DNA of 64,000 bases. Origin: Burkholderiales bacterium (GTDB lineage: Bacteria; Pseudomonadota; Gammaproteobacteria; Burkholderiales; JABEVD01). Shown in pieces: positions 8,194 to 29,172 of this stretch. The stretch spans positions 1 to 64,000 of the forward strand of contig JAIELG010000043.1 of the NCBI GenBank assembly GCA_019753155.1. Direction: 5' to 3'. The position numbers and the translations under genes were made by a program. Numbering within the stretch: position 1 is the stretch's first letter; every line of letters begins with the position of its first letter. The notes under the pieces are model-generated. The model was not told the origin of the DNA, did not search any database, and was given only the letters and a program-made list of their open reading frames with translations.

Positions 8194-8241
8194 CGCTGCA
8201 GCCGGAATTCGGGCAGTTTTGTTAAGATTGCGTTTTGGTTG

Positions 8242-8270: not shown

Positions 8271-8303
8271 CGGCGAGTGCGGCTTTATCTAAAGGGGGCA
8301 GTC

Positions 8304-12600: not shown

Positions 12601-13667
12601 TTTATGCACGGGATTTTCGCAACATCGGCATTGCCTTCGACGGCTCGTACCGGCTGTCCGTGAGTCTGTCCAGTGAACGCATTCGTCCCGACAGCCGTGC
12701 GGTCGGGCGCGCGGCGCGAACGATTCTGCTCAATGCGCCGCTCGGGACGCGGGAAATCCGCATCACTTTCGCGGAGCATGTCGATCCCGTCGTGACCTAT
12801 GATTTTTTCGATCTGCCGCGCCTGAAACGCTACCTCAACGGGGAATTGGACCGGAATGCGCTGAAGAATTTCGTCGATATCGAATACATCAATCCGTCCG
12901 CGCGCGAAGCAGACCCCCTTGCCTGCCTGGATGATCCCGGTTCGGGCAGGCAGGATTTTTCGGATGTTTTCCTGCCCGACATGCGCCCGGTTGCCAGAGT
13001 GGAGCGGGATATCATGGGAGCAGTCGGCATCGCCTCCGATACCGATTGGCTCAAGGCGGGCGCAATCGGAGCCGGTCTGGTGCTGGGAAGCAGCCTGTTG
13101 GACAAGCCGGCCGACAATTTCGCCAGAAACCATGCTGCGAACAGCCTGCTCAGGAATTTCGACAGCGTGGGCAATGCACTTCCCTGGGTGGAAAGCGCGG
13201 GCGCTGCCATGGTCGCCCTTGGAAGCTCCGATCCGAGGCTTTCCCGGACGGGCTATGCGGCATCCGAAGCGGCCGTAACCTCCTATCTTGCCGTGGTGGG
13301 GCTGAAGTATGCAGTGGGGCGCGCCCGTCCGTGGACTGGGCAGGGCAGCAACAGCTTCAATCCTTTCGCCGGATCGGCGGCCAATGGCACGGACGGATTT
13401 CCTTCCGGGCATACCATCGTCGCATGGGCGGTCGCCACCCCGTTCGCGGAAGAATACGATGCCCCTTGGCTTTACGGGGTGGCCGCCCTCACCAATTTCG
13501 CGCGTGTCGGAAGCCGCAATCACTGGGTTTCGGACACTGTGGCGGGGAGCTTCCTGGGTTACGGGATAGGCAAGTTTTTCTGGGAATCTTCCCGAAAAGA
13601 GGACAAGGACAGGCCTTTCATCATGCTCGGCCCGACGGGGGTCAACGTTTCCTGGAAATTGCAATGA
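9642..13667 (+). CDS. Triple fusion: YjbG/GfcC + YjbH/GfcD beta-barrel + PAP2 phosphatase
   Basis: This 1341-residue secreted protein has a signal peptide (about 1-25, ending VHA). Residues 26-230 match YjbG/GfcC (polysaccharide-export beta-grasp type, with LQANPSRDPVIMLGDGIELP). About 265-1130 match the YjbH/GfcD outer-membrane family (SNDWGQAGLLQNPTARM, many alternating aromatic strands). The last 200 residues are a PAP2 domain with K-x6-RP (KYAVGRARP, about 1222), PSGH (about 1253) and R-x5-H-x3-D ending NHWVSD (about 1294); the usual Ser of the last motif is Ala. In E. coli yjbG and yjbH are separate genes and no phosphatase is attached. The PAP2 part is weakly hydrophobic, so a periplasmic location is likelier than a polytopic one. 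It overlaps both neighbours by ATGA. Confidence 0.82.
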   Translation: MRSGSRRFFIPLSACLILYSFPVHAERLSDWLLEQPFSPDAYPLGLIWKVPGERVSQNELRFDLLKSLSGLDPEVTADPGSMRLLRNWISTLAITGRAPVAVADARWLQANPSRDPVIMLGDGIELPMRPRTVTVVTASGRLCRVQHAPNVEAMDYVEICSPNGHVDWAYMAQPDGKVQRFGVAAWNREKQDEPAPGAWIWAPPRDGGWSGRFSEKLIAFLATQGPAPDSMQAPAVRGGASQAWPLSDFPEIQSSPILPAPIDPHIRSRSLVVTSNDWGQAGLLQNPTARMRSAGEFSFTLNRVYPYTRGNVSLQPLDWLEVGFRYTNISNRLYGPASLSGSQAYKHKSIDVKFNLMNESAYEPQLAVGLRDLAGTALFGGEYLVASKRTGPLDWSLGLGWGYVGGRGNLGNPLGLIGNVFKTRTAPTGTGNLALSSYFRGPTALFGGVQYQSPWEPLILKLEYDGNNYRNEPLNNPLAQGSPWNFAAVYRASNSVDLTAGMERGNTAMFSISLHTQLADLTMPKLDDPPRVPVAERRPEKAPDWAATSRDIAQQTNWHVGRIADREHELRVTIDDANNLYWRDYLDRAAAVLHRDAPASVDRFVFVYRERGMEVAQHEIDREAWVEKQTRVLPPSGQREAVIAGEPERPQPQVPLYEAHPPVFESKLGMNFNYNLGGPNGFILYQIAPIVHAKLRFNKDTWLQGGVQYGVLDNFNKFTYDAPSNLPRVRTYLREYMVTSKATMPNLQLTHVGSLGENQYYSLYGGYLEEMFAGVGGEWLYRPFAGRTALGVDANAVRQRNFAQDFGLRNYNVLTGHATLYWDTGWNDVLANLSAGRYLAGDMGVTVELSRAFKNGVRMGAFFTKTNVSAQQFGEGSFDKGIYVTIPFDAMLTKSSDLIGNLLWRPLTRDGGAKLSRQIALYDLTQARDDRRYEPAPLQNDLLIPEDRREGWKPAPLQPYVQIPPRPTVAQWVSEKPRFEQKLREALYARDFRNIGIAFDGSYRLSVSLSSERIRPDSRAVGRAARTILLNAPLGTREIRITFAEHVDPVVTYDFFDLPRLKRYLNGELDRNALKNFVDIEYINPSAREADPLACLDDPGSGRQDFSDVFLPDMRPVARVERDIMGAVGIASDTDWLKAGAIGAGLVLGSSLLDKPADNFARNHAANSLLRNFDSVGNALPWVESAGAAMVALGSSDPRLSRTGYAASEAAVTSYLAVVGLKYAVGRARPWTGQGSNSFNPFAGSAANGTDGFPSGHTIVAWAVATPFAEEYDAPWLYGVAALTNFARVGSRNHWVSDTVAGSFLGYGIGKFFWESSRKEDKDRPFIMLGPTGVNVSWKLQ

Positions 13668-15898: not shown

Positions 15899-15972
15899 GG
15901 CGGGGTGGCAGAGTGGTCATGCAGCGGCCTGCAAAGCCGTCCACACCGGTTCGATTCCGATCCCCGCCTCCA
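15899..15972 (+). tRNA. tRNA-Cys (GCA)
   Basis: The 74-base gene folds as a standard cloverleaf: acceptor GGCGGGG pairs with CCCCGCC (15962-15968), discriminator T and an encoded CCA at 15970-15972. The anticodon loop CTGCAAA carries GCA, and the T loop GGTTCGATTCC is intact. It decodes UGC and UGU. It marks the left boundary of the peptide and tail-collar gene region; no integrase or attachment repeat was found beside it. Confidence 0.96.
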
Positions 15973-15997: not shown

Positions 15998-16492
15998 ATG
16001 CGCTTTCTTGCCGTCGCTATGATGCTGGCTGCGCCCGTTCGCAAGGCGAAGAATTTTTTGCGCAGGCCATGGTTCGAGAAGGCATGGTCTACTCCCGCAT
16101 GGTTTTTGCTGGGGGCAAGCCGCCTTGTCATTCTCTTCGTTCCTTTCAGGCGCCTTGCGCCTTTCCTTGGCGCGCAGTCGTATCCCTGGGTGCCGTGCGC
16201 AACTGCGGAAGGCGAAGCCAGGGCATTGTCGATTGCCCGGGTAATCGTTATGGCTGCCCGTCATACGCCGTGGGAGTCGAACTGTTTTGCGCAGGCGGTG
16301 ACCGCAAGAATTTTGCTCGGGCTTTACGATGTTCCGTACAGCCTGTTCTTCGGTATCGCAAATGATTCCATGATGGAGATGAAGGCGCATGCCTGGGTGG
16401 TCGCCGGACGGGTGCGCGTCACGGGAGGGGAGAGCTTCGGACAATTTACCGTGGTTGGCTGTTTTGTCGCATCCGTCCTGGCAAATGCATAA
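15998..16492 (+). CDS. Lasso-peptide B2-like transglutaminase-fold protease
   Basis: The product from ATG 15998 has 164 residues and matches the B2 (transglutaminase-like core) family that cleaves leader peptides in lasso RiPP pathways. Family marks are PWESNCFAQAV with the catalytic Cys (about 96) and MKAHAWVV with the catalytic His (about 131), then a short VTGG turn. The reading frame runs upstream into tRNA-Cys; ATG 15998, GTG 15983 or ATG 16019 are all possible starts and none has a strong ribosome site. Family B2 proteins are about 140-160 residues, which fits 15998. It stands 25 bases after the tRNA and converges with a GNAT gene 4 bases downstream. Confidence 0.82.
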   Translation: MRFLAVAMMLAAPVRKAKNFLRRPWFEKAWSTPAWFLLGASRLVILFVPFRRLAPFLGAQSYPWVPCATAEGEARALSIARVIVMAARHTPWESNCFAQAVTARILLGLYDVPYSLFFGIANDSMMEMKAHAWVVAGRVRVTGGESFGQFTVVGCFVASVLANA

Positions 16493-16496
16493 GAAG

Positions 16497-16973
16497 TTAC
16501 GAATCCGACCAAACCATCTCCATGCCGTCATCGCCATTTACTCGAAATCCTGCGGAAAGGTAGAGGTGTTTGGCGCGCATGTTCAGGGGATCGACCGAAA
16601 GCGTCAATATTTTATTCGAGCCTGCAGCCTCGTTTTGCAGCGCCCGAATCAGGCGGCGGCCATGGCCCTTGTTGCGTTCATGCGGCAGAAAAGCGATGTA
16701 GACCAGCCGGATCGCCCCGTCGCCGCGATGCGTGATCAAGCAACCTACGGGTTCGCCGTTTTTCTCGACGATGTCATGATCGGCATTCGGAAATTGTGTG
16801 CGGTATCCTGTTTGTTGGGATTCGAACTGCATCTGCATCAGGTTGGCCGCCATCGCCTCGGGAAGCCCAAGCTGCAATAAGTCATCCCTTGTAGAACGAT
16901 AAAGTGTTGCGAGAAAGGGCCTGTCCTGCAAGGCTGCAGAGCGGAGCGTCAATATGTCAACGTTATTGTTCAT
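16497..16973 (-). CDS. GNAT-family N-acetyltransferase
   Basis: This 158-residue protein has the GNAT fold: a first helix segment LRSAALQDRPFLATLYRSTR, the central strand VYIAFLPHERNKGHGRRLI containing the acetyl-CoA pyrophosphate loop (R-x2-G-x-G-type, about residues 98-107), and the C-terminal YLSAGFRVNGDDGMEM. The acceptor is unknown. From general familiarity, members with this particular N-terminus often sit near tail-collar (MdpB-like) gene triplets, and three such genes are in this region. It is transcribed against the surrounding genes, ends 4 bases from the B2 gene and has no clear ribosome site. Confidence 0.82.
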   Translation of the reverse strand: MNNNVDILTLRSAALQDRPFLATLYRSTRDDLLQLGLPEAMAANLMQMQFESQQTGYRTQFPNADHDIVEKNGEPVGCLITHRGDGAIRLVYIAFLPHERNKGHGRRLIRALQNEAAGSNKILTLSVDPLNMRAKHLYLSAGFRVNGDDGMEMVWSDS

Positions 16974-17093: not shown

Positions 17094-17741
17094 ATGAGCG
17101 TCAAAGAACCATCGAATCCTTTCGACCGCATTCCACCTTACCGCATCGTGCAGGACTTTCTGGGGAATGACCTGATCGAGCGTTTGCTGGAACACGCCAA
17201 AGTCCGCGAGCCGGAGTTCGTATCGACAAAAGTCGGCAATACGGAAGGGCATCTCGACACCGAAGTGCGTATTTCACGCGTGCTGCCGGATTTCGGGGTC
17301 CTGCGAACGGAGCTGGAGCTGCGGTTTAAGGGAGCGATGCCTGAGGCGATCGCCGGTCTCAGACTCACCCCTTTCGAACTGATTCGTTGCGAAATCGAAC
17401 TGGTGGCGCATAACGACGGCGCCTTTTACAAACGCCATATCGATACTCAAACAGAAATTCCGAATGCCGAAACGCAGCGGGTATTGACCGGCGTGCTTTA
17501 TTTTTATGCTTTGCCGAAGGGATTCAGCGGCGGTCAGCTGCGGTTGTATTCCTGCTCGCTTTCGGGAGAGAATTTCATCGATATCGAACCCGTGCGCGAT
17601 CAGTTGGTATTGTTTCCAGCCTGGGCGCCGCACGAGGTTTTGCCTGTGTCATGTCCTTCCGGAGAGTTTGCACAATCCCGTTTTGCCGTCAATTGCTGGT
17701 ATAGGCGCGCGAACCCGCATCAAGCGATTGCACATGAATGA
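17094..17741 (+). CDS. 2-oxoglutarate/Fe(II)-dependent oxygenase-like protein
   Basis: The product from ATG 17094 has 215 residues (GTG 17025 would add 23). It contains the iron-binding facial triad of the 2OG-Fe(II) superfamily: YKRHIDT (HxD, about residue 105), the distal His in AWAPHEVLP (about 180), and the 2OG-binding Arg in SRFAVNCWYRR (about 200). Related prolyl-4-hydroxylase-like proteins hydroxylate amino acid side chains in proteins or peptides. Here it opens an operon with an ATP-grasp protein, an asparagine-synthetase-like cyclase and a YkgJ protein, so peptide hydroxylation is a reasonable hypothesis. It overlaps the next gene by 8 bases. Confidence 0.8.
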   Translation: MSVKEPSNPFDRIPPYRIVQDFLGNDLIERLLEHAKVREPEFVSTKVGNTEGHLDTEVRISRVLPDFGVLRTELELRFKGAMPEAIAGLRLTPFELIRCEIELVAHNDGAFYKRHIDTQTEIPNAETQRVLTGVLYFYALPKGFSGGQLRLYSCSLSGENFIDIEPVRDQLVLFPAWAPHEVLPVSCPSGEFAQSRFAVNCWYRRANPHQAIAHE

Positions 17742-19005
17742 AGGGAACTCCGGAAAACGTCCTTTCCGGTTGTTGCGTTTCCTGTATGTGCGCTGGCCAT
17801 TCATGGCTAATTTCTACTCCCTGAGCAAATTGGGTTTCCCCTTCATGCTGCCTGATTTTCGCGCGAGCGCCATGAGGCGGCTGCGTGCCCGTGCCCGTCG
17901 CGAAATTTTCGCGCACCATCCGCCGGTGCGGCGCTGGCTGGAGCGCATGACGATGACGCTTTCCTGGCCATTCGGCGCGCTGGTGGACACGGTTTACAAT
18001 TTGAGAATGAGCGGAGCGTTCGACCGTCCACGAAACTTTCCGGATCTGATGGTGCGCGCCGGACATATGCTGACATTGGCCTTATTCGAAAACGTTCCGC
18101 CATTTGAATATGTCGCCTACCGTTTGAATGAACCCGGGCGGCGGGAGCGGGCAAGCGAATATCTTTATTGGAGCGAAGACAATATTTTTCGTGTCCTCAA
18201 CAGTCGCAACGGCGCAGATAACGACGACGTGCAGGACAAGGGGCGTTTTGCCGATATCTGCCGGCAGCACGGTTTTCCCTGCATTCCCACGCTGGCCATT
18301 TATCGGGGAGGCAGGCAAATTTTCCCCGATGCGCCATTTATCCCCAGCCAGCCCGCCCTGTGGGTGAAGGATCTTGCCGGCAGCCGGGGAAGCGGAGCGG
18401 GGCAATGGCGGCGTCAGGAAGGCGACTACACTTCTCCTGGAAGAAGGGTTGCCACACCCGAAGAACTTGCGGATTCATGGCGCAAACAAAGCTGCATCAT
18501 TCAGCCGGTAATCAACAACCATCCCGATTTGGCCTGCCTGTCCGACGGGACTCTGGCGGAAATCCGCATCATTACCGGGGTCGATCCCGAAGGCAATGCG
18601 CAACTTATTACGCACCAGATGACCATTCCCTGGGGCGGATTCGCCAATCGGCCTTTCTCCGTGCTGGGTATTCTGGACGATGATGGGCGCATATCTCGCG
18701 CCATCTCCGGCGACGGAAAGCCTGTGGAACGGCATCCGGAAACAGGCGCACCCATTGCTGAAATTGTCGTTCCATTCTGGCGCGAAGCGCGGGAATTGGT
18801 GAGCCGCGCTCATGGGCAGGCGTTTTCGCATTTCGTTTTTCTCGGCTGGGACGTCGCGATCACTGCAGAGGGGCCGGTATTGATCGAAACCAATTCTAAC
18901 CCCGGAGTTTTCCACCATCAGTTCGCCGACGACATTCCACTCGGGCATACCGTTTTTGCAACGATTGCTTCCCGATATTTCGAAAGGGCTGAAACATGCG
19001 ATTGA
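17734..19005 (+). CDS. ATP-grasp protein (sugar-transfer-associated type)
   Basis: The 423-residue product from ATG 17734 resembles the sugar-transfer-associated ATP-grasp family. Features are a basic N-terminal helical part (about 1-130), the central strand LWVKDLAGSRGSGAGQW resembling an ATP-grasp lysine/glycine loop (about 208), and a C-terminal LGWDVAITAEGPVLIETNSNPG (about 372) with the metal-binding Glu and Asn pair. ATP-grasp enzymes make amide or ester bonds through acyl-phosphates. The acceptor is unknown, and this family is also found in glycan clusters. Overlaps of 8 bases upstream and 10 downstream put it firmly in the operon with the cyclase, which points to peptide modification here. 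Confidence 0.75.
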   Translation: MNEGNSGKRPFRLLRFLYVRWPFMANFYSLSKLGFPFMLPDFRASAMRRLRARARREIFAHHPPVRRWLERMTMTLSWPFGALVDTVYNLRMSGAFDRPRNFPDLMVRAGHMLTLALFENVPPFEYVAYRLNEPGRRERASEYLYWSEDNIFRVLNSRNGADNDDVQDKGRFADICRQHGFPCIPTLAIYRGGRQIFPDAPFIPSQPALWVKDLAGSRGSGAGQWRRQEGDYTSPGRRVATPEELADSWRKQSCIIQPVINNHPDLACLSDGTLAEIRIITGVDPEGNAQLITHQMTIPWGGFANRPFSVLGILDDDGRISRAISGDGKPVERHPETGAPIAEIVVPFWREARELVSRAHGQAFSHFVFLGWDVAITAEGPVLIETNSNPGVFHHQFADDIPLGHTVFATIASRYFERAETCD

Positions 19006-20819
19006 TATGCGGCTTTTTTCATCGAGACGGGCAGACAGCGGAAAAAGGCCGCTTAGGGGCCATGGTCGATGCGATGATCGAACCTGGACTCGAACCGCAG
19101 ATCGCGCAACTGACCGAAGGGTCGCTCGCGCTTGCCGTGCTGGATTTCGCAAGAAAAACCCCTTTCGAGATTGCCCATGGTGAACATGGGCTGATCCTGG
19201 CGGCGGATTGTCGTCTCGACGAGCCGGAGGCATTGAGGCGGATGCTTGGCGTCGACGGCGCAGTGGCGGACGAAAGCTTGCTTCTGTCAGCGCTGCAAGA
19301 TTGGGGTTCTGCAGGCATTTCGAGAATACTGGGCGATTTCGCCTTTGCCGCATGGAACCCGCAAACTCGCTCCCTGCTTTGCGCGAGAGATTGCATGGGA
19401 ATCCGCCCTTTCTTCATGGCAAAAAATAACCGGCGGGATTTTGCTTTTGCTTCACTGCCGCGCGCCCTGCATGCGGGCGGTTTTGCGACGCGCCGTCTCG
19501 ACGAAAGCTATCTGGTCAACGATCTGTTGAATGTGTTTTCATGTCCGGAACGTTCCCTTTTCCAGGATATCTCGAAGCTGGCGCCAGGAAATTTCCTGCA
19601 TGTTTCCTCAAATGAAATTCGCCCGGAAGTCTATTGGAAGCTCGATCCTGAACTTGCCGGCAGCAGGACTTGTTCTTCTGAAGCGGCTGCGGAAGAGCTT
19701 TCGGAGAAATTGATCGAAGCCGTGCGTTGCCGCCTGCCGGAAACTGGCCCGGTAGCGGCACATCTCAGCGGAGGGCTGGATTCCTCTGCGATTTCAGTGC
19801 TGGCGGCGCGCATGTTGCGCCGCGAAAAACGCCCGCTCCTGGCCTATTCCTTTCTTCCTGAAATTCAGGGCGAGGAAGACGAGCGTCCTTTCGTCGAGGC
19901 CGTGCTGAAGCAGGAGAGCGACATCGAATGGATGCCGGTCACGATAGCCGATCCGGAAGCTTTTTTCATGCCGAGGATGGATTGCGATCAGTTGTTTCCT
20001 TCCGATTCTGGACATCCCGACATCCGGGTGTGCGCCGATGCGGCAGGCCGCGGCGCGGACATGCTGTTATCAGGCTGGGGAGGAGATGAGGGGGCTACCT
20101 TCAATGGTCGCGGCGCACTGGCCGAAGCCCTGCTCAACGGCCGATGGCGCTATCTGGCGCAGGAAATTGAATCCCTGAAACGCACCCGGAAATGGACTGT
20201 CATCCAGATCATGCGAGGTGAAGTGCTGGCTTATCTTTTTTCGGAGCGCCTGCGCAGTTTGCTGGGGAAGCATCGGCACGATATCGCTGCCCGCATCTTC
20301 AGGGTGTTGCAGCCCGGGTTTGCCGATGCCAGGCGAGGAGAACCCCTCAGGATCGGACCCAATGCGGCGATGAATCGCTATATACTCCTGAGCAGTTTTC
20401 ACCTTGCCAGGCGGGCCGAGCATTGGGCGCTGATGGGCGCAAGGCATGGTCTGGCTGTCGGCTTTCCGATGCTGGACCGGCGAGTGGTGGAGTTCTCGCT
20501 GTCCCTGCCAAGCGCGTTATTTTTGCGTGGGGGCTGGAAGCGGCGCGTTTTTCGCGATGCGATGGTCGACGTGCTGCCTGATGCAATCCGTATGCGTCAT
20601 GGCAAGCTCACCCCTATTCCTGAAGTATCAGGGATGATGGAAACTCAACGTGAGCGGCTTTTGCTGTATCTTGCCGAATTGCGCGGCCACCCGGTCATTT
20701 GTACCTTGTTCGATCTTGGCGAAGCCGAAAAGATATTGCGGTCGGACTGGGAAGGGGCCGACATTCCCACCTTGCTTCGGTTTTTAAACATGGCGACATA
20801 TGTGCAGCAGCACCACTGA
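18996..20819 (+). CDS. Asparagine-synthetase-like isopeptide cyclase (lasso C protein type)
   Basis: This 607-residue protein has an N-terminal glutaminase-like domain (about 1-190) and a C-terminal asparagine synthetase domain with the PP-loop SGGLDSS (about 258-264), LSGWGGDEGATF (about 355) and GFPMLDRRVVEFS. It begins MRLICGFF, so the catalytic Cys2 of true glutamine-dependent AsnB is missing; Cys is at position 5. That loss, plus a B2 protease and PqqD nearby, fits lasso-peptide C enzymes, which adenylate an Asp or Glu side chain and close the ring. A non-lasso amidation role stays possible. It overlaps the ATP-grasp gene by 10 bases. Confidence 0.82.
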   Translation: MRLICGFFHRDGQTAEKGRLGAMVDAMIEPGLEPQIAQLTEGSLALAVLDFARKTPFEIAHGEHGLILAADCRLDEPEALRRMLGVDGAVADESLLLSALQDWGSAGISRILGDFAFAAWNPQTRSLLCARDCMGIRPFFMAKNNRRDFAFASLPRALHAGGFATRRLDESYLVNDLLNVFSCPERSLFQDISKLAPGNFLHVSSNEIRPEVYWKLDPELAGSRTCSSEAAAEELSEKLIEAVRCRLPETGPVAAHLSGGLDSSAISVLAARMLRREKRPLLAYSFLPEIQGEEDERPFVEAVLKQESDIEWMPVTIADPEAFFMPRMDCDQLFPSDSGHPDIRVCADAAGRGADMLLSGWGGDEGATFNGRGALAEALLNGRWRYLAQEIESLKRTRKWTVIQIMRGEVLAYLFSERLRSLLGKHRHDIAARIFRVLQPGFADARRGEPLRIGPNAAMNRYILLSSFHLARRAEHWALMGARHGLAVGFPMLDRRVVEFSLSLPSALFLRGGWKRRVFRDAMVDVLPDAIRMRHGKLTPIPEVSGMMETQRERLLLYLAELRGHPVICTLFDLGEAEKILRSDWEGADIPTLLRFLNMATYVQQHH

Positions 20820-20847
20820 CGGCATGGTCGGTTCCAAGGAAGACGGT

Positions 20848-21378
20848 ATGTCATTATGCCTGTCTTGCGGAATTTGTTGCGACGGCGCGTTATTCGGCTG
20901 CGTGCCGATCGGCAATGCCGACAGTCTCGCCGCAATGGAAGCGGCAGCCATAGAGGTTCTTGTGCTTGACGGGCAGAGCCAATTCAAACAGCCCTGCCCT
21001 GCTTACTCCTGTAAAGGCTGTCGGATTTACGCCGACCGTCCGGCAAGCTGCCGGGAATTTTGCTGCAAGCTGCTGGCGGAATACGAAGGCGGGAAAATAT
21101 CCATGCTGGTTGCCAGGGAGAAAATAAAACAGGCCGGTTCTCTCAGGGACAGCCTCCTGGAAACATTGAGGCGTATCGACCCGGCATTGTCCGGCAGGTC
21201 TCTGGCGGAACTGTGGAAGCAGTGGGACAGTGCGGCAAAAGGGGCGGAAGGGTTGGTCTTCCGGCAAAAATTCGGATATGTGTTGATGCAAATGGCTGCA
21301 TTAAGGCGGTTTTTTGATCGACATTTTATTGCGCAGGCGTTCCCTCGCGGCGATGATTCGGAAGGGACCCGGAACTAG
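20848..21378 (+). CDS. YkgJ-family cysteine-cluster protein
   Basis: The start at ATG 20848 (MSLCLSCGICC) follows AAGGAAGACGG; in-frame ATGs at 20800 and 20824 are less well placed. The 176-residue protein has the YkgJ/Fe-S-like cysteine cluster: CLSCGICC near the N-terminus and CPAYSCKGCRIYADRPASCREFCC (about residues 50-74 in all), then an alpha-helical C-terminal half. Family members are thought to bind zinc or an Fe-S centre; function is unknown. It lies 28 bases after the cyclase on the same strand and its 3-prime end overlaps that of the opposing PqqD gene by 4 bases. Confidence 0.75.
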   Translation: MSLCLSCGICCDGALFGCVPIGNADSLAAMEAAAIEVLVLDGQSQFKQPCPAYSCKGCRIYADRPASCREFCCKLLAEYEGGKISMLVAREKIKQAGSLRDSLLETLRRIDPALSGRSLAELWKQWDSAAKGAEGLVFRQKFGYVLMQMAALRRFFDRHFIAQAFPRGDDSEGTRN

Positions 21379-21641
21379 CCCAGCATGCCGCGTTCGCGCA
21401 GCGCCTTGATGAATTCCTCAACTTCCTGGCGACAGGTGTCAAATGGAACGTCATATTCCTCCGTCAGGCGCGCCGCCAGTTCGTCGATGCCGATGGGGGA
21501 CTCCAGCAGTTCCCAGATGCGCGAGCCTACCGAATTCAGGCTGAAATAGCTGCCTTTTTCGATGCTCATCATCAACAGTTCTTCGCCCACCGCAGCCCCC
21601 AGCAAGTCGTTCGACCGCTGAAATAATTGATCCTCAGACAT
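21375..21641 (-). CDS. PqqD-family RiPP recognition element protein (B1-like)
   Basis: This 88-residue protein matches the PqqD family, winged-helix RiPP recognition elements that bind leader peptides and present them to modifying enzymes. Typical features are the strand GEELLMMSIEKGSYFSLNSVG, the helix SRIWELLESP and the acidic EEYDVPFDTCRQEVEEFI. In lasso pathways the B1 protein is a stand-alone PqqD of this size that binds an aromatic-x2-Pro leader motif. The candidate precursor nearby carries VWATPEI. It is the last gene of the minus-strand run (tail-collar genes, precursor, kinase, sulfotransferase). An alternative family name is the PqqD partner of HprK-related systems. Confidence 0.85.
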   Translation of the reverse strand: MSEDQLFQRSNDLLGAAVGEELLMMSIEKGSYFSLNSVGSRIWELLESPIGIDELAARLTEEYDVPFDTCRQEVEEFIKALRERGMLG

Positions 21642-21656: not shown

Positions 21657-22496
21657 TCAAATATAGCCGAATCTGGACATGACCCGGTGGTGCGTTTGTG
21701 TGATCGCCTGCTGCTGCTCCGGGTTCAGCACTTCCCGCCAGATGCCGGCGCAACCGGAACGAAAGAAAGGTGCCGTCGATTGCATGGGCCGCTCGCGAAA
21801 GCCGGCGACTTTTTCCTGGCGCTGCAAAGCGGAAAAATCGGTGCAACGGACGGCGTGTTCTATCGCATCGGCCGAAGCTGCGAGGCCGAGAAAATCCGCT
21901 GCCGCCTGCATGGTGGCGATGGGCGATTCATGCAGATCCTCGTAGCGGATGACGTGGACCGGTACATCATTCTGTTCGATCCAGCTTTCGACATGGCGGC
22001 TCCAGTCGTAAGCCACCTGATGAAGTCGAGGAAGATTGTGTCTGCGATCCAGGACCATCTGCGGGCTATTCATCAATTTTATCGCCTGTTCGATCGAGAT
22101 TCCGCAGTGAAATGCGAATGAAATCGCCACGTCGCGCGGATCGCGGATTACATAGCACCCCGCTCGCGCGCATCCATGACCCAGCAGCGGCTCGCCGCCC
22201 GCTATGGTCCTGTAGGCGTCATGCACCTTGACGTAAATATCGCCATCCGCTTTCGAGGTGATCTCTTTCACCACTCGCGGCCGCAATGCATCCACCTCGT
22301 CGTGCGATAGCAGGCTGGAATCGATCAGGGTGATTTCCTCGAAATTGTCGCGATTGACGATGTCGCGCTGAGGCAAGCCGATCTCGTTGATGTCCACCGC
22401 TTCCTCTTTGCCGGACAACAGGTTGGCGAGCAGCAGGCGCAGCCAGGTATTGCCGGATTTCGGATAGGATGCGAGCCAGATGATCGCGCCGGCCAT
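21657..22496 (-). CDS. Sulfotransferase-domain protein
   Basis: This 279-residue protein has both PAPS-binding elements: the 5-prime phosphosulfate loop ASYPKSGNTWLR near residues 8-19 and the 3-prime phosphate loop VIRDPRDVAISF (about 110-121), plus the late DFLGL and GIWREVL segments. It should transfer sulfate from PAPS to a hydroxyl or amine group in the cytosol. The start at ATG 22496 shares one base with the upstream kinase stop (TGATG) and has GAGG at proper distance; ATG 22502 is two codons earlier. Coupling to the HprK-like kinase and PqqD suggests a peptide substrate, but glycolipid or sugar sulfation is not excluded. Confidence 0.85.
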   Translation of the reverse strand: MAGAIIWLASYPKSGNTWLRLLLANLLSGKEEAVDINEIGLPQRDIVNRDNFEEITLIDSSLLSHDEVDALRPRVVKEITSKADGDIYVKVHDAYRTIAGGEPLLGHGCARAGCYVIRDPRDVAISFAFHCGISIEQAIKLMNSPQMVLDRRHNLPRLHQVAYDWSRHVESWIEQNDVPVHVIRYEDLHESPIATMQAAADFLGLAASADAIEHAVRCTDFSALQRQEKVAGFRERPMQSTAPFFRSGCAGIWREVLNPEQQQAITQTHHRVMSRFGYI

Positions 22497-23398
22497 CAGC
22501 ATGCCTCGAACAGGTGTTTCTGCACAAGGGTGACGACTTCTTCCAGTTTTTCGATTTCTTGCGGTCTTGTCAATCGATAGGCGCTGACATGGCCGAGCAG
22601 CCTGGCGATCTGGCCGAAAAGCGCAGCATCGAGCTCCATGCGGGAGGCGAGGGCCGACCGGTAAACATCGGATCGCAGCAATGCGGCCGCGTCGCTTAGG
22701 CCCAATGGCTCGATTACGGCTTCCTGACCGCGAGACTCCGCCGTGCGCAGCACCAGTATCTTCGAAAGCGGCATCGCGGCGCTTTCGCCGGACGGGTCGA
22801 CATGGTATTTTTCTATCGTTTCCCGTACCGCTCCACCCTGGCGTTGAGACAGGGAAAGCCGTTCGACGGCATCGATCCACAAACGGTGTTGACGGCTGTC
22901 GGGCAATACCCAGGGGCAGCCGTCGGCCTCGAAGCGAACTACGGAAATATCGTCACTGACGAAGCTGCAACCGGCCTGGCAAAGCGCTGCGGATAAAGTC
23001 GATTTTCCCATGCCGCTTGGTCCGCAAATAGCGATGGCTCGACCGTCACGGGCGACGGCCGATGCGTGCAGGGCCAGCGTGCCGCGCTGGTGCAGCAATA
23101 CGCCGAAGCCGGTGCCGAGCAGGAAAGGGACGGTATCGGCCTCGGCATTTTCGACATCGACGATAATTTCCCTGCCTGAACGCACCCTCATGCGGGCGAC
23201 GCCGGGAATATGCAGCAGAAAATCGTCCCCTGAAATCATCCAGTTCGGCCCGCGCAATGTGACCTGATCCAAGGTTTCGGGAAGGCGGCCTCTTTCAATC
23301 CTGACATCGGGTTCAAGCCCCGTTTTTTCGGGATCCGCCACACCTGTGAGCGTAATTTCAGAGGCGACAACCAGGCCGGATATCAGGTAATGCAACAA
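22496..23398 (-). CDS. HprK-like serine kinase (peptide-tailoring type)
   Basis: This 300-residue protein has an HPr kinase-like core: LHASAVARDGRAIAICGPSGMGKST with Walker A (about 125-133), followed by the SFVSDDISVVRF acidic strand. It lacks the N-terminal sensor domain of true HprK. Homologues in lasso clusters such as paeninodin phosphorylate the C-terminal serine of the precursor, and the adjacent candidate precursor ends in Ser. Other members belong to HprK-related/PqqD systems of unknown function. It lies 12 bases after the precursor gene, and its stop overlaps the sulfotransferase start by one base. Confidence 0.82.
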   Translation of the reverse strand: MLHYLISGLVVASEITLTGVADPEKTGLEPDVRIERGRLPETLDQVTLRGPNWMISGDDFLLHIPGVARMRVRSGREIIVDVENAEADTVPFLLGTGFGVLLHQRGTLALHASAVARDGRAIAICGPSGMGKSTLSAALCQAGCSFVSDDISVVRFEADGCPWVLPDSRQHRLWIDAVERLSLSQRQGGAVRETIEKYHVDPSGESAAMPLSKILVLRTAESRGQEAVIEPLGLSDAAALLRSDVYRSALASRMELDAALFGQIARLLGHVSAYRLTRPQEIEKLEEVVTLVQKHLFEAC

Positions 23399-23410: not shown

Positions 23411-23566
23411 TCAGGAAGTATGTCCTGAAGGGCCCCCTTCCACCGGGGTGGTGAACTTCGCCTTGAGCGTGACATCCTTGATCATCTGGTCGCAGATTTC
23501 AGGCGTAGCCCAAACCTTCCTGGCGCGAGGCCGGGAGGGGGGCTCTGGAGTTTCTGGATCGGCCAT
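23411..23566 (-). CDS. Candidate RiPP precursor peptide (51 residues)
   Basis: The start at 23566 follows GAGGAG with good spacing; a longer in-frame version from 23641 lacks one. The peptide begins MADPETPEPPSRPRARK, continues VWATPEICDQMIKDVTLK and ends AKFTTPVEGGPSGHTS. The aromatic-x2-Pro-x-Ile pattern (Trp19, Pro22, Ile24) is what PqqD/B1 proteins recognise in lasso leaders. Thr33 could be the penultimate leader Thr. Glu43 is the only acidic residue in the C-terminal 20, at ring position 8 if the core begins at Ala36 or 9 if at Lys35; neither start is typical, since Gly is usual. The terminal Ser suits the adjacent HprK-like kinase. Function is inferred from context and size. Confidence 0.68.
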   Translation of the reverse strand: MADPETPEPPSRPRARKVWATPEICDQMIKDVTLKAKFTTPVEGGPSGHTS

Positions 23567-23735: not shown

Positions 23736-24329
23736 TCATGGATGTTGCGGGAAAAGGCCATCGTTGCAGATGCAATAAAGCAAAGGCAGGTAGGGCTGCC
23801 GATTCTCGTGAGTTGCATTGCCGCCGGTTATCCCCAGGGTCGATGCATGCAGGGTCGTGTCGACCTGAGCGCCGGAAGCGGCCAAGGTGAAATTGGGAAT
23901 GATGGCGCTGGCATCGGGTCCGCTTACTTGCGCCGGGCGAGCCAGCCAGGAGCTGTTTGCCACGGGTACTGCCAAACTGTTGGCCTGAGAACCAATCGGC
24001 GACGTCAATTTTTCCATCACCAGGGTGTGATTATGGGAAGGGATTTGAGAGACGGATACGGTTGCCGATTCGGTTCCGTGCTTGCTTCCAAGCAGCCAGT
24101 TTATGGCGCTGCCGGGAGCAGTGCTTGAACCGACCCCGACGGCGGCTTGCCCGTTCAGGTTGGGCAAAACGAAGGATTGCGGGTTCGGCGGATTTCCATA
24201 GGTATTGCCGACGATGGCGGCTAGCGCCTGGTATTGGGCGATGGGAACTGCCTGACCGTTGCACTCCAGCCAGCCTTGAGGCGCGAATGAAAATGCAAAG
24301 GGGCGGATTTCGCCTATGAATGCATCCAT
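23736..24329 (-). CDS. Tail-collar domain protein 1 (MdpB-like)
   Basis: This 197-residue protein has the phage tail-collar fold seen in microcystin-dependent (MdpB-like) proteins. The N-terminal core is GEIRPFAFSFAPQGWLECNGQ, with later FVLPNLNGQAAVGVG and SHNHTL. The C-terminal closing strand YLPLLYCICNDGLFP follows a Gly/Ser/Ala-rich middle. No signal peptide or membrane segment is seen. It is the third of three tandem genes on the minus strand and the most diverged, with NPPNPQSF where the others have GGDG. No other phage structural gene is present, so these are not an obvious prophage remnant. Confidence 0.85.
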   Translation of the reverse strand: MDAFIGEIRPFAFSFAPQGWLECNGQAVPIAQYQALAAIVGNTYGNPPNPQSFVLPNLNGQAAVGVGSSTAPGSAINWLLGSKHGTESATVSVSQIPSHNHTLVMEKLTSPIGSQANSLAVPVANSSWLARPAQVSGPDASAIIPNFTLAASGAQVDTTLHASTLGITGGNATHENRQPYLPLLYCICNDGLFPQHP

Positions 24330-24342
24330 GATCTATTCTCCC

Positions 24343-24891
24343 TTATTGAAATTGCGGATAAATTCCGTTCAGACAAATGATGTAGTTTACAGCCAGGCCG
24401 GGCATGACATTGTTATGCCCCTGGCTGCCGCCTGCCGAAACAACACTGGCCGTGTTGGGACTGGCTTGAACCGCGGTCGAGGACGGTAAGCCGTCTTTGA
24501 TGTACAGTGTGTTTTGTCCTGTGGTGTTGGCGAAAGTCACTGTCGTATCGAACGTTCCGGTGGTGGCGGCAACTCCGGCGGTGTTGAGCGTATGGGCATG
24601 AGCTGCCATGCTCGCCGTGGTGAGTGTGACAGTCTCCGTCCCGCCCTGCTGTCCGAGGGCATAGTTTGTCACGGTAGTTCCCTCCGTGTATGTACCCTGG
24701 CTGAGGCCGACGCGACCGCGAAAATCCGGAACGGCGAAAGTATTCACGCCGTCGCCGCCGTAAGCGGCGCCTATGAGGCTGAAAAGCGTGTTGTAAGCGC
24801 TGACCTGAAGCAACGTGCCGTCGCACAGGTGCCAATCCACCGGAGCGAAATTTCCGGCAAAGAGGCGAATTTCTCCGATATAGGGATCCAT
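24343..24891 (-). CDS. Tail-collar domain protein 2 (MdpB-like)
   Basis: This 182-residue tail-collar protein starts MDPYIGEIRLFAGNFAPVDWHLCDG, with the conserved LFSLIGAAYGGDG, FAVPDFRGRVGLSQG and AHAHTLN blocks, then Thr/Ala-rich variable sequence and the closing NYIICLNGIYPQFQ. Tail-collar domains form trimeric or fibre-like assemblies in phage tails, while the free-standing bacterial MdpB-like proteins are of uncertain function. It is separated by 13 bases from the first paralogue and 25 from the third, so the three are probably co-transcribed and made in parallel. No secretion signal is visible. Confidence 0.87.
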   Translation of the reverse strand: MDPYIGEIRLFAGNFAPVDWHLCDGTLLQVSAYNTLFSLIGAAYGGDGVNTFAVPDFRGRVGLSQGTYTEGTTVTNYALGQQGGTETVTLTTASMAAHAHTLNTAGVAATTGTFDTTVTFANTTGQNTLYIKDGLPSSTAVQASPNTASVVSAGGSQGHNNVMPGLAVNYIICLNGIYPQFQ

Positions 24892-24916: not shown

Positions 24917-25459
24917 TTACGGGCGCATCGGATAAAGGCCGACCGTTGCAATGCAGAAACTGGTCACGCTGAAAGGCTGCATGTTGGAGTGCGCGCCGCC
25001 GCTGCCTGTATTCTGCACGCTTCCGGGATTCAGCGGGATCATGCCCGAGCCTGGCGCTGCAAGCGCATTTTGCTGGGTCGGCACGGCAGCGCTCGTTCCT
25101 ACCGAGGATATGAAATTGTTCGCAATTTCCTTGATCGTGCCCCCCCCCTTTTTGCCCGCCAGTTGATGGTTGTGCGCAGGCAACTGTGCCACGGTAAGGG
25201 TGACGTTTTCCGGGCCGCCGTTTTTGCCCTGCACATAAGTGCTTCCTGCGGGACTTTGGCCTCTGTTCACGGCCACCCGCCCACGCAGGTCGGGTAGCGC
25301 GAAGGTCGTTCTGCCGTCCCCGCCGTACATGTTGCTGAGCAGGCTGAAAAGGGCGTTATATTGATTGACAGGCAATGTCCTGCCGTCACAGGGCATCCAG
25401 TCCATAGGAATTTTGCCGAATGCGAAATTCCGGATTTCGCCAAGATACCAATCTCCCAT
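24917..25459 (-). CDS. Tail-collar domain protein 3 (MdpB-like)
   Basis: The start at 25459 (MGDWYLGEIRNFAFG) follows AGGAGGAG; an ATG one codon earlier is too close to that site. The 180-residue protein keeps the LFSLLSNMYGGDGRTTFALPDLRGRV core, PAHNHQL, and the C-terminal FSVTSFCIATVGLYPMRP. It is the first gene of the tandem triplet and heads the minus-strand run that continues through the precursor, kinase, sulfotransferase and PqqD. A nine-base homopolymer (plus-strand C, 25140-25148) lies in the codons for Lys-Gly-Gly-Gly and could allow frameshift switching. Confidence 0.87.
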   Translation of the reverse strand: MGDWYLGEIRNFAFGKIPMDWMPCDGRTLPVNQYNALFSLLSNMYGGDGRTTFALPDLRGRVAVNRGQSPAGSTYVQGKNGGPENVTLTVAQLPAHNHQLAGKKGGGTIKEIANNFISSVGTSAAVPTQQNALAAPGSGMIPLNPGSVQNTGSGGAHSNMQPFSVTSFCIATVGLYPMRP

Positions 25460-25612
25460 CATCTCCTCCTTTTTGTGATTCGCAGGCCGCACTTGGATCG
25501 TGGCTCGACATTGCCACGTTCTTACAAATCGATTAAAGCATGTGAAATGACAAATACCAAATTGCATGGCTTCTGAACGGACAAAAAATTTACCGGATGC
25601 CATCCGCCCCTG

Positions 25613-25838: not shown

Positions 25839-27539
25839 ATGGTTGACTATCTGCGCGTATTCCTGCGTTTCGACCCTGCTGCGATCCGGCGCGCGGTTCT
25901 GTTCAACTTTGCAGCAGCATTCGCCGAGGGAGCGAGCCTCCTGATGCTCCTGCCGTTGCTTTCCCTGGCGGGGGTGCTCGGGGAGGCCGGCAGCAGGCGG
26001 GGCTGGATGCCGCCCGTTGACCGGGCCTTATCGATGCTCGGGTTCAAGTGGAATATCGAAATCGCGCTGCTCGTTTTTGTCGCGCTGATCTTTCTCCAGT
26101 CGCTCCTGGTGATGCTCAGAGACCGCGAATCCAATGCCTTGCAGTTTCGCTTCGGGGATCACTTGCGGAAAAAACTTTACGCTGCGATTGGCGCTTCCAG
26201 CTGGCGCTTCCTTGCGGAGCATCACAGCGGAGAACTGCTTTCCGTGCTTGCCACCGATGTGCAGCGCATCGGGGCGGGAACCCACTTTATGCTCCGCTTT
26301 TTCACCGTGTCGGTGCTTGCTGTCGCCTACCTTGCCGTGGCGCTCAGACTTTCAATCGGACTCACCTTGCTCGCGCTGGCGACAGGATCGATGCTCTGGA
26401 TGTTGCTGCGCGGCGCCGATAACGTTGCAAAACAGGGGGGAATGATGCTGAGCGAAGCGAACCGCTCGCTGTTCGGGCAGATCCAGGAATTCCTGTCAGC
26501 CATGAAACTCATCAAGATCCATGGCGAAGAGAAAGACAGCGTGAGCAGCTTCAATCGCGGGGTCGATCAGGTCAGCAATCGCTCGATCGAATTTTATCGG
26601 GTCAGGACAAGGGTACAGGCGGTATATCATGTGGGCGGGGCAATGGCGCTCGCTTGTCTCAGCTACTCGGCCCTCGTCTGGTTCGAATTGCCGGCGGCGC
26701 ATTTGCTGGTGATGATTGCCATCTTCGCACGCATGCTGCCCCAGCTCGCCGAATTGCAAAGCGGAAGACAGCAAATGCTGCATATGCTCCCTGCCTATGC
26801 CGCCTGGCGTGGACTGGTCGATGCCTGCGAAGCGAATCGCGATCCTGTGGAGGCGGTCGGCAATCGCGTGCCACTCGAGCTGGGCATCACTTTCGAGCAG
26901 GTCGGATACAGCCGCCCGCACCACAGGCTTTTTATCCCGCAATTGACTATTCCTGCGAGAAAGACCACCGCGATAATCGGGGTTTCCGGTTCGGGCAAGA
27001 CGACTTTTCTCGATCTTTTGAGCGGTTTGCTCATCCCCGAGTGCGGCGCCATCCTGATCGACGGCATGCCTTTGCAGCAATGCTGTGGATGGCGGCAGAG
27101 CATTGCTTACATCCCACAGGAAACCCAGATCCGGAGCGGCACAATCCGCGACAATCTGCTTTGGGGCAATTCAATCACGCAGGATGCCGAGATCGAAAAG
27201 GCGCTGTCGCAGTCGGCTCTGGCCGGATGGGTGCAGAAGCTGCCTGCAGGACTCGAAACCGAAGTCGGAGAACGGGGCATCAGGCTCTCCGGGGGCGAAA
27301 AACAGCGCTTGGCGCTCGCCCGGGCCCTCCTCAGACATCCTCAGCTTCTGGTGCTCGACGAAGCCACCAGTGCGCTCGATGCGGGCAACTACAGGCTGGT
27401 GGCCGATGCGATCCGCGCGTTGCGCGGCAGCATGACGGTGCTTGTCGTCACCCACAGGATCGACGAGCTTTCCGGGTTAATCGACGGCATTGTTCGTGTG
27501 GATGAAGGTGAGGTCGGAAAATGGCAGCCGACAGCATGA
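25839..27539 (+). CDS. ABC transporter, fused permease and ATPase (peptide exporter type)
   Basis: This 566-residue half-transporter has about six membrane segments in residues 1-310 and a nucleotide-binding domain in 335-560. The domain has Walker A GVSGSGKTT (about 381), signature RLSGGEKQRLALARA (about 482), Walker B LLVLDEATSALDA (about 503) and the switch His in VTHRID. Homodimers of this type export peptides or lipids across the inner membrane. In a cluster with B1, B2, C and a precursor it fits the lasso D (McjD-like) role. It lacks an N-terminal peptidase domain, so leader removal would fall to the B2 protein. It overlaps the nucleotidyltransferase gene by 19 bases. Confidence 0.88.
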   Translation: MVDYLRVFLRFDPAAIRRAVLFNFAAAFAEGASLLMLLPLLSLAGVLGEAGSRRGWMPPVDRALSMLGFKWNIEIALLVFVALIFLQSLLVMLRDRESNALQFRFGDHLRKKLYAAIGASSWRFLAEHHSGELLSVLATDVQRIGAGTHFMLRFFTVSVLAVAYLAVALRLSIGLTLLALATGSMLWMLLRGADNVAKQGGMMLSEANRSLFGQIQEFLSAMKLIKIHGEEKDSVSSFNRGVDQVSNRSIEFYRVRTRVQAVYHVGGAMALACLSYSALVWFELPAAHLLVMIAIFARMLPQLAELQSGRQQMLHMLPAYAAWRGLVDACEANRDPVEAVGNRVPLELGITFEQVGYSRPHHRLFIPQLTIPARKTTAIIGVSGSGKTTFLDLLSGLLIPECGAILIDGMPLQQCCGWRQSIAYIPQETQIRSGTIRDNLLWGNSITQDAEIEKALSQSALAGWVQKLPAGLETEVGERGIRLSGGEKQRLALARALLRHPQLLVLDEATSALDAGNYRLVADAIRALRGSMTVLVVTHRIDELSGLIDGIVRVDEGEVGKWQPTA

Positions 27540-28747
27540 AGGTCTTCGATCGTCCTTGCGTGAGGAAATTCATACTCGATGCGCTCAATCCGGATGCTGC
27601 GCTGCCGGACATCGGCGCGATGCAGGAAGCGGATTGGGCCTGCCTCCTGCAATCGGCTCAAACGCATCGTCTCGGTCCCATGCTTCATGACAGGCTCGGC
27701 CATTTCGTCTCAATTCCAATCGAGGTTAGGGATCGTTTGCAGGCGATGCATCGAAAAAGCGTCTTGCGCAATCTGAATATTTACCGGGAACTGGTCACGG
27801 TGACGCGGAAGCTGGAAGCCGAGCAAATTCCTTCAATTGCGCTGAAAGGCGCCTTTCTCGCTCGTTTCGCCTATTCCGATCCCGGACTCAGACCGATGCG
27901 CGATCTGGATTTGCTGGTCACGGTCGATCAGGCGGTCAAGGCTTTCGAATGCCTCAAGGCGTGCGGATACCGGCCCATGTCCGAAGGCTTGCCCGAAGCC
28001 TATTTGTCGGACTATCACCATCTGCCCGGGCTGATAAGCCCGGACGGCATCAATATCGAACTCCATCATCGCTTGAGCGCTCCTGGCGGGCACTCTCCCG
28101 ATTTCGGCGAAGATATTTGGGCGCGCAGCATATCGAAAATGATCGGCGGGACTGAGGTCGGATTTCTCTGTCCGGAGGATCTCCTGCTTCATTTATGCAC
28201 CCACGCCGCGATCGATCACCGGCTCGATCTGGGCCCCCTTGCGCTTGTCGACGTCGCTTTTCTGGTCGAAACCCATAGGATCGATTGGCGGGATTTCGCA
28301 AGTCGCGCCCAAGGCAAGCGCTGTGCGTTTGCCTTGCTTTGTCTGGCGAAGCTGCATCTCGGTGCGAAGATCCCCGACGAGATCATCGAAGCCGGTCCTG
28401 AAAGCGATGCAGCCTGGCTGGAGTCCGCAGAGTATCTGTTGTTTTTCGGGCGCATCAGCCAAAACTTGATGGGTAATACCATGCAGCGAATTCTGTATCC
28501 GGGGAATTTCATGGAAAGTTTACGCATCCCTTTCGATATCGTATTTCCGCCACGTTCTGCCATTTCACTGCATTTCCCGGTAAGGGCCGATTCTCCGCAA
28601 GCGTTTCTGTATTATCCATTGAACTGGCTTCGATTGTTCGCCGAAAAATTGCCGTTTTTGTTGAAAGCGCTTTCCGATCGAAAACGGGCCCGAAAGTGGG
28701 CTCTGCACAGGAAAACATTCTCCGACTGGATTCGGGAAAAAGACTGA
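27521..28747 (+). CDS. Nucleotidyltransferase-family protein (NTP_transf_5 type)
   Basis: This 408-residue protein matches the putative nucleotidyltransferase family often found with HprK-like kinases and in lasso clusters. The key block is LKGAFLARFAYSDPGLRPMRDLDLLV (about residues 107-132), where the Asp pair would bind metal, then GINIELHHRLS (about 173). The remainder is alpha-helical. Whether it transfers a nucleotide to a peptide, protein or small molecule is unknown. The start at ATG 27521 has GGTGAGG at good distance; ATG 27536 in an ATGA overlap is the alternative. It is the last gene of the plus-strand unit with the exporter. Confidence 0.8.
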   Translation: MAADSMKVFDRPCVRKFILDALNPDAALPDIGAMQEADWACLLQSAQTHRLGPMLHDRLGHFVSIPIEVRDRLQAMHRKSVLRNLNIYRELVTVTRKLEAEQIPSIALKGAFLARFAYSDPGLRPMRDLDLLVTVDQAVKAFECLKACGYRPMSEGLPEAYLSDYHHLPGLISPDGINIELHHRLSAPGGHSPDFGEDIWARSISKMIGGTEVGFLCPEDLLLHLCTHAAIDHRLDLGPLALVDVAFLVETHRIDWRDFASRAQGKRCAFALLCLAKLHLGAKIPDEIIEAGPESDAAWLESAEYLLFFGRISQNLMGNTMQRILYPGNFMESLRIPFDIVFPPRSAISLHFPVRADSPQAFLYYPLNWLRLFAEKLPFLLKALSDRKRARKWALHRKTFSDWIREKD

Positions 28748-28802: not shown

Positions 28803-28869
28803 ATCAAAGCAAGCTGAGCCGCGAGGGGTGGCTTCTGCCTTTGGTGTTCAATACTTAATGGGGGGGAAT

Positions 28870-29172
28870 ATGAAGCTCTGGTCCAGATTGTTCGTCACGC
28901 TTGCGATTACATCTTCGGTGTTCGGTTGCGCGGTTGCGCCAACGCCCGGAGACAAGCCCGATCCAACCCCGCCGCGCCTTCATGTTGGCGACAAAAACAT
29001 AGCATTATGGGACCGTCCCGGCGCTTTCGGCCCGGTTCCCTCCGAGTTGCAGGGCGCGGGCGACTCGCTTTGCCAGTCCATTGGGTTGAAGAAAGCTATC
29101 GGATATCATCCGAAAGCCGAGGACGTGAATGGTAACCCGATCAAGGGTGGCGGGTATTTCTGTTCCAACTGA
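28870..29172 (+). CDS. Small secreted lipoprotein of unknown function
   Basis: The start at ATG 28870 is preceded by a run of seven G that serves as a ribosome site; the upstream in-frame ATGs are less likely. The 100-residue product has a signal peptide and lipobox SVFGC, then a Pro-rich mature N-terminus (APTPGDKPDPTPPR). A short conserved-looking domain with two cysteines follows (DSLCQSIG and the final GGYFCSN), which may form a disulfide. I recognise no family. It has its own promoter candidate and a good terminator, so it is probably a single-gene unit at the right edge of the peptide region. Confidence 0.72.
   Translation: MKLWSRLFVTLAITSSVFGCAVAPTPGDKPDPTPPRLHVGDKNIALWDRPGAFGPVPSELQGAGDSLCQSIGLKKAIGYHPKAEDVNGNPIKGGGYFCSN

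Follow-up and report, generated by a model that had tools for sequence, protein, structure and literature searches.

According to the accessible parts of two articles (PMC8498205, PMC9266682), the tailoring enzymes known for lasso peptides include a kinase, a nucleotidyltransferase, an acetyltransferase and a 2-oxoglutarate (2OG) hydroxylase; HprK phosphorylates the C-terminal Ser, PsmN attaches hexoses, and CanE hydroxylates the linear lasso precursor. Here we describe a lasso-type locus in a 64,000-nucleotide stretch of DNA from a Burkholderiales bacterium (contig JAIELG010000043.1, positions 1 to 64,000; hereafter 'the window'), in which the genes for a prolyl-hydroxylase-like 2OG-Fe(II) oxygenase, a PF14397 ATP-grasp ligase and an AsnB-type lasso cyclase overlap one another. 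The paeninodin and pseudomycoidin clusters share B1, B2, C, D, an HprK-like kinase and a nucleotidyltransferase with the window, and a sulfotransferase gene, also present in the window, has been noted in some Firmicutes lasso clusters (accessible parts of PMC8498205, PMC9266682). Beyond paeninodin and pseudomycoidin, the window has the oxygenase, the ATP-grasp, a GNAT acetyltransferase, three collar-domain proteins, and Lys as core residue 1 (Leu in G287, a genome of a second species of the genus).

Three other systems resemble the locus in part. In canucin A, as far as the accessible accounts describe it, a 2OG enzyme (CanE) is encoded with lasso genes and uses the linear precursor with the assistance of B1. 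However, CanE β-hydroxylates a C-terminal Asp, whereas in the window the C terminus is Ser and the oxygenase has prolyl hydroxylases as its closest relations. Corallotide has an ATP-grasp ligase and a PF13640 oxygenase working alongside each other within one cluster for a ribosomally synthesized and post-translationally modified peptide, but the accessible text describes no lasso B1/B2/C set, its ATP-grasp is of the TIGR04187 type, and it has a repeated KIVAD core (PMC13097080). Engineered lasso-graspetide chimeras bring lasso enzymes and an ATP-grasp ligase together on one peptide, but, in the accessible text, these are man-made fusions (PMC13003496), whereas the combination in the window is natural and involves a different ATP-grasp family.

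The original prediction for this locus held that lasso pathways do not normally include this type of ATP-grasp. No natural lasso cluster with an ATP-grasp is described in the accessible parts of PMC8498205, PMC8939145, PMC13003496 and PMC13097080, and those of PMC13352647 do not mention ATP-grasp. Our literature search returned no paper naming PF14397, ATPgrasp_ST or the full family name, although most subscription papers fall outside its coverage, which leaves this absence unproven. Hydroxylation of the peptide, which had also been proposed as new chemistry, has a precedent in CanE, since 2OG oxygenase tailoring of lasso peptides is already known (accessible parts of PMC8498205, PMC9266682). 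What appears to be new, to judge from gene content, is a PF14397 ligase in kinase-type lasso clusters; kinase, nucleotidyltransferase and 2OG tailoring are already known. Our preferred reading, to which we assign a probability of roughly 60%, is that the locus is a kinase-type (paeninodin/pseudomycoidin-like) lasso island which has acquired the oxygenase and the PF14397 ATP-grasp as tailoring enzymes of the precursor.

The overlapping block, its core lasso enzymes and its precursor

The oxygenase gene (17094-17741, forward strand; PF13640, E = 2.7e-16) overlaps the ATP-grasp gene (17734-19005, forward; 423 residues; PF14397, E = 2.1e-27) by exactly 8 bases, and the latter overlaps the cyclase gene (18996-20819, forward; 607 residues; PF00733, E = 1.5e-31, plus GATase_7) by exactly 10 bases, as read off the sequence. 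The open reading frame (ORF) of the oxygenase opens at a GTG at 17025; from the ATG at 17094 the protein has 215 residues. Given this arrangement, the three genes are probably translationally coupled. The gene that follows encodes a YkgJ-like Cys-cluster protein (20848-21378, forward; PF03692, 21.6 bits, just below the 23-bit cut-off); its ORF opens at 20800, a start that gives a 20-base overlap with AsnB, which the second ATG at 20848 avoids. The four genes thus lie where the original prediction placed them, with the same overlaps, as judged from ORFs, sequence and Pfam matches.

The same trio occurs in the same order in G287 (region L031, contig JAJZTT010000022.1), at 63-64% (oxygenase), 62% (ATP-grasp) and 57% (AsnB) identity. 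The remaining genes are also found there: PqqD (70%), sulfotransferase (56%), kinase (60%), B2 (60%), GNAT (47%), the ATP-binding cassette (ABC) protein (57%), the nucleotidyltransferase (44%) and three collars. Among nine genomes of the genus, a close lasso-type AsnB is found in three (at least 57% identity, the window's own counted) and the ATP-grasp in two; in the third AsnB carrier, G227, a contig end falls inside AsnB. The trio was also found on plasmid CP131057.1 of the alphaproteobacterial Hyphomicrobiales bacterium UR115 (oxygenase 54%, ATP-grasp 47%, AsnB 45% identity), next to PqqD (59%), sulfotransferase (51%) and kinase (47%) in the order and orientation of the window. UR115 has an extra 2OG-like ORF between the oxygenase and the ATP-grasp, called by eye and without a Pfam match. 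In three lineages, therefore, oxygenase-ATP-grasp-AsnB faces PqqD-sulfotransferase-HprK-precursor, with similar identity across the enzymes. Recurrence in G287 and UR115 indicates that the arrangement of the trio is beyond chance. A scan of genome contigs matched only the G287 contig, which was already known; no relative was found in viral contigs, and no relative of the ATP-grasp in phages. The YkgJ-like protein had been counted as a fourth member of the set, but tblastn detected no homologue of it in any other fetched region, G287 included, so that only the trio recurs, and on this comparison the YkgJ-like protein is a lineage-specific passenger.

The core lasso enzymes surround the block. 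The B2 leader peptidase (15998-16492, forward; Transglut_core3/lasso_biosyn_B2, PF13471, E = 3.9e-18) scores 74.8 bits with NF033537, whose cut-off of 33 we used to recognize a lasso cluster. The PqqD/B1 leader-binding protein (21375-21641, reverse) matches PF05402 above the cut-off (E = 3.1e-21), and the HprK-like kinase (22496-23398, reverse) matches Hpr_kinase_C at 21.2 bits, under the cut-off. In a cyclase tree of 32 rows, a supported clade unites the window, G287, G227, UR115 and the loci L147 and L141a; L127, Tistrella pTM3 and L141b form a group of their own, which is likewise supported. Cys5 of the cyclase is replaced in the UR115 homologue.

The candidate precursor is a 51-residue ORF between the kinase and collar genes (23411-23566, reverse), with homologues beside HprK in G287, G227 and UR115; GAGGAGAT immediately precedes its ATG. 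It has a leader WATPEI...DVT-L and a core KAKFTTPVEGGPSGHTS containing Glu9 and a C-terminal Ser; the paeninodin core likewise has T(-2), an acidic residue 9 and a C-terminal Ser. Taking the core to start two residues past the conserved Thr, the predicted cores of the relatives are LNKFTSPTEYSVLGSASYGAGS (G287), LAKFSSPTEYSVPGSASYGAGS (G227) and GKAFANPTEASPATGS (UR115). F4, P7, E9 and the C-terminal Ser are common to all four cores, and a WxxP...T(-2) leader motif to the window, G287 and UR115 precursors. We took Thr(-2) together with Asp/Glu at core positions 7-9 as the mark of a lasso precursor, and found both in the window, G287, G227 and UR115; the C-terminal Ser is present in every precursor of the window's cyclase clade. 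Glu9 would fit a nine-residue lasso ring, and the C-terminal Ser would fit the kinase chemistry of paeninodin (accessible parts of PMC8498205). Residue 1 is Gly in UR115, whose core contains a single Lys, and Ala in L141a and L147. No NCBIfam model matches the precursor of the window, G287, UR115, Tistrella, L141a or L147 (six tried). Elsewhere, a kinase-type precursor on a plasmid of Thalassobaculum sp. OXR-137 (L057, 10220-10447) has a core GPSTFSSGQAAHVS after Thr(-2) that lacks an Asp/Glu for ring closure, and no readable precursor was seen in L181 or L184.

Linkage of the oxygenase and the ATP-grasp to lasso genes

We surveyed lasso B2 genes in 385 genomes, which we take to be alphaproteobacterial because the matches included contigs of UR115, Tistrella and Thalassobaculum, and found them in 32 genomes at 39 places, covered by 37 regions. 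With our own profiles, kinase and cyclase occurred together in 19 of the 37 regions, the oxygenase in two (L141, L147), and the PF14397 ATP-grasp likewise in two (L127, 39.2 bits; L141, 67.3 bits; Pfam cut-off 31.4). In L127 the ATP-grasp lies directly upstream of ABC and B2; in L141 it shares its strand with a B2 and an AsnB. Since L127 and L141b group separately from the window clade in the cyclase tree, the lasso operons with PF14397 enzymes belong to two cyclase clades. With two of 37 B2 regions and the three close loci as the tally, this type of ATP-grasp is indeed atypical of lasso pathways. L141 (G1305:C3:1-20000) itself contains at least three adjoining lasso-type sets, with AsnB at 3.1, 8.7 and 15.6 kb, three distinct precursors and a single oxygenase, which is truncated.

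The oxygenase was also searched for in plasmids and in family f339, in both cases without lasso genes as bait. Three of the six plasmid records were lasso-linked (UR115, Tistrella pTM3 and A. oryzae), one belonged to a lanthipeptide (LanM) cluster, one lay near a nonribosomal peptide synthetase gene, and one was neither. Family f339 gave five loci besides G1062, one of which was A. oryzae again; three of the other four carried lasso genes, and the fourth was a 9.8-kb contig without them. Of the strong oxygenase matches (at least 170 bits), 10 of 11 lie beside lasso genes, several of them being in the profile or found through B2. The weak relatives (61-96 bits, three genomes) had no match to lasso B2, PqqD, kinase or cyclase. 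On the Pseudanabaena galeata plasmid pPg_03 (L084, 1703-12523), oxygenase relatives adjoin genes for a LanM lanthipeptide synthetase and for a precursor with a Nif11 leader.

All three close ATP-grasps lie beside lasso genes. PF14397 at large behaves differently: it was found in 16 of 300 genomes in an order-level search and in 7 of 398 in a phylum-level search (the cut-offs differ), and ten distant regions sampled from these (from 3 of 14 other genomes of the order and all 6 other genomes of the phylum) showed no match to B2, PqqD, HprK-like kinase or oxygenase, with a 24% AsnB match in one. We do not claim these regions as capsule loci. The concern raised with the original prediction, that both enzymes might be found mostly in capsule loci lacking peptide genes, is therefore not borne out for the close ATP-grasps or the strong oxygenase matches, whereas PF14397 at large fits it in that none of the ten regions matched B2, PqqD, HprK or the oxygenase.

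These distant regions bear on the possibility that the ATP-grasp and the oxygenase serve cell-surface polysaccharide assembly and lie beside lasso genes by accident. The name of PF14397, which refers to sugar transfer, points the same way, as does a YjbH exopolysaccharide locus 2 kb upstream of the island. However, the overlapping genes have been inherited together with the cyclase in three lineages, in two of which (L031 and L054) the sequence read shows no exopolysaccharide neighbour, and the YjbH side lies outside the island borders. We therefore consider this explanation improbable.

It had also been suggested that the enzymes modify the collar-domain proteins (23736-24329, 24343-24891 and 24917-25603, all reverse; PF07484), in which case the peptide machinery would serve as delivery or co-factor. 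The collar triplet does recur, together with GNAT (16497-16973, reverse; PF00583), in lasso-type clusters, namely in the window, L127, L134, L140, L147, L150, L151, L056, L076, L181 and L184, and GNAT matches are confined to loci bearing the triplet. Nevertheless, UR115, which has the oxygenase and the ATP-grasp, and Tistrella pTM3, which has the oxygenase, show no match to a collar protein within the region fetched, and a precursor is present in both. A role on the collar proteins is thus very improbable. Among the matches listed, no paper joined a lasso peptide with a collar term.

Because of the recurrence of the block, the lasso-linked relatives and the lack of B2, PqqD and HprK matches in ten regions around distant PF14397 genes, we read the oxygenase and the ATP-grasp as tailoring enzymes of the precursor, and not as capsule or collar enzymes. 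The central point of the original prediction, membership of the lasso locus, is retained in this reading, and its suggestions on the collar proteins and YkgJ are dropped.

Proposed working of the locus

The scheme that we propose builds on gene content, overlaps, block conservation, precursor and catalytic motifs, all read from sequence; each reaction, the reaction order and the threaded product are predicted. PqqD (B1) would bind the leader, the oxygenase would hydroxylate one core residue before folding, and the HprK-like kinase would phosphorylate the C-terminal Ser, where the nucleotidyltransferase and sulfotransferase may add further decoration. B2 would cleave two residues past the conserved Thr, AsnB would link the new N-terminus with Glu9, and the ABC protein would export the product. 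The ATP-grasp would activate a second carboxylate, most likely the C-terminal one, with Lys1/Lys3 or a free amino acid as the amine partner.

For the oxygenase, H115, D117, H180 and R196 are invariant in an alignment of five sequences, and the nearest solved structures in a profile search of PDB are prolyl hydroxylases: 6t8m (E = 1e-14), 4iw3 (E = 5e-12; which we take to be a bacterial prolyl hydroxylase) and EGLN1. It therefore has both the HxD...H plus Arg motif and the family similarity by which we recognized a prolyl 4-hydroxylase-like enzyme. Its target may be Pro in the first place and Lys in the second (ring Pro7 or Lys3). P-x-[DE] stands at ring closure in 6 of 7 oxygenase-positive cores versus 1 of 22 oxygenase-negative ones, a post hoc comparison uncorrected for kinship. 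This count covers 33 typed rows less four: G227 (oxygenase unknown), the second Tistrella precursor (distant from the oxygenase), L141b (oxygenase truncated) and TSH100 (another 2OG enzyme). The rows of L134, L140 (two), L150 and perhaps L158 begin about one residue inside the probable core, which leaves the motif call unaffected.

For the ATP-grasp, K212, D373, E385 and N387 (window numbering) are conserved throughout the five lasso-linked sequences and presumably align with the usual ATP/Mg ligands; no solved structure is similar to it by sequence. The window core has no acidic side chain besides Glu9, and four of five ATP-grasp-linked cores (window, G287, UR115 and L141b) have a lone acidic side chain, L127 having two. 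If AsnB uses this side chain, the presumed ring acceptor, then by this counting argument the ATP-grasp most likely acts on the C-terminal carboxylate, or else on one outside the peptide. Taken further, two carboxylate activators would act on one precursor, AsnB closing the ring and the PF14397 enzyme ligating the C terminus, to yield a lasso whose tail is covalently closed or extended by an amino acid, and whose ring carries a hydroxylated residue. We put this forward tentatively, as a possible but doubtful outcome.

A graspetide-like crosslink is another option, in which the ATP-grasp would connect Lys2/3 with either the ring Glu or the C terminus and the oxygenase would hydroxylate the same Lys, in the manner of CorB and CorC in corallotide. 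Lys occupies core position 2 or 3 in each of the six precursors from the window's cyclase clade, and CorC, a PF13640 enzyme, partners an ATP-grasp on a Lys-Asp isopeptide (accessible parts of PMC13097080). On the other hand, PF14397 is not a graspetide synthetase family: it is the sole family above cut-off for the window protein, TIGR02291 reaching 31.6 bits against a cut-off of 314. Moreover, the Lys is present in L147 and L141a, two loci in which no ATP-grasp lies alongside, and Glu9, if it is the lasso acceptor, is not free. In Tistrella and A. oryzae the oxygenase accompanies cores that contain no Lys, so that Lys2/3 also fails as an oxygenase signature. We regard such a crosslink as rather unlikely.

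Several observations weigh against the preferred reading of precursor tailoring in a kinase-type lasso island. Three of the enzymes remain under the NCBIfam cut-offs for lasso proteins or kinases: PqqD scores 73.1 bits with lasso_PqqD_Bac (NF033536; cut-off 80), the cyclase 293 bits with its best model, lass_lactam_cya (cut-off 525), and the kinase 48.6 bits with HprK_rel_A (cut-off 200), a clear but sub-threshold similarity. Residue 1 of a lasso core is usually Gly, Ala, Ser or Cys, and the Lys of the window and Leu of G287 are unusual among lasso peptides; a Priestia peptide annotated to the paeninodin family also reads Leu1. In UR115, B2, ABC and nucleotidyltransferase, like the collar proteins, were unmatched within the 30 kb read; the B2 of this plasmid lies near 630 kb, about 230 kb from the block. 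L147 and L141a keep the oxygenase with no close ATP-grasp match beside it, and a TPR-2OG protein (PF13759) lies upstream of the oxygenase; the ATP-grasp is therefore dispensable. The ATP-grasps of L127 and L141 score about 30 bits with a three-sequence profile, below non-lasso ones, and may have been recruited separately or be neighbours by chance. P-x-[DE] as an oxygenase signature was derived from the first five positives and held in only one of three later cases (L141a, but not L147 or L183), which makes it a lead only. Finally, two structure predictions had pLDDT (predicted local distance difference test) values of 51 and 32, too poor for use.

If the preferred reading is true, it would add a new ligase family to lasso-peptide tailoring and provide the first testable substrate for PF14397 ATP-grasps; if both activators act on the peptide, PF14397 enzymes would be peptide ligases and not merely sugar-associated. 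The product may carry unusual chemistry, because an oxygenase and a kind of ligase rarely tied to lasso peptides lie in the cyclase operon. With single-carboxylate cores, one mass measurement would show whether and where the ligase acts on the peptide. The preferred reading would also mark out a clade whose precursors escape the NCBIfam models.

Island borders and neighbouring genes

The island is bordered on the left by a tRNA-Cys gene (15899-15972, forward), which in relatives adjoins the same T2SSE-type ATPase gene, and on the right by a tRNA-Leu(taa) gene (29341-29429, forward), both identified with ARAGORN. In G037, a sister species in the genus, tRNA-Cys and tRNA-Leu lie 3.9 kb apart and the island is missing; the flank on the tRNA-Cys side is that of the window, with genes for YjbH and a T2SSE-type ATPase at 66-78% DNA identity, and the best match to the lasso-type AsnB reaches only 31%. 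G287 has the tRNA-Cys site on contig C120 and the cluster on another contig, C124. From the tRNA spacing in G037 and the separate contigs in G287 it follows that the exopolysaccharide neighbours belong to the site and not to the system.

Within the island, the sulfotransferase gene (21657-22511, reverse; PF00685, E = 8e-24) lies between PqqD and the kinase. The ABC exporter (25839-27539, forward; PF00005, PF00664) is followed by an NTP_transf_5 nucleotidyltransferase (27521-28747, forward; PF14907, E = 1.2e-52), for which a PsmN-like role is inferred, and by a small conserved protein (28828-29172, forward) that is 57% identical in G287. Outside the island, the exopolysaccharide genes include one for a 1341-residue protein with a YjbH domain and a C-terminal PAP2 phosphatase domain (9642-13667), and they adjoin a repetitive Gly/Ala-rich ORF (8235-8822).

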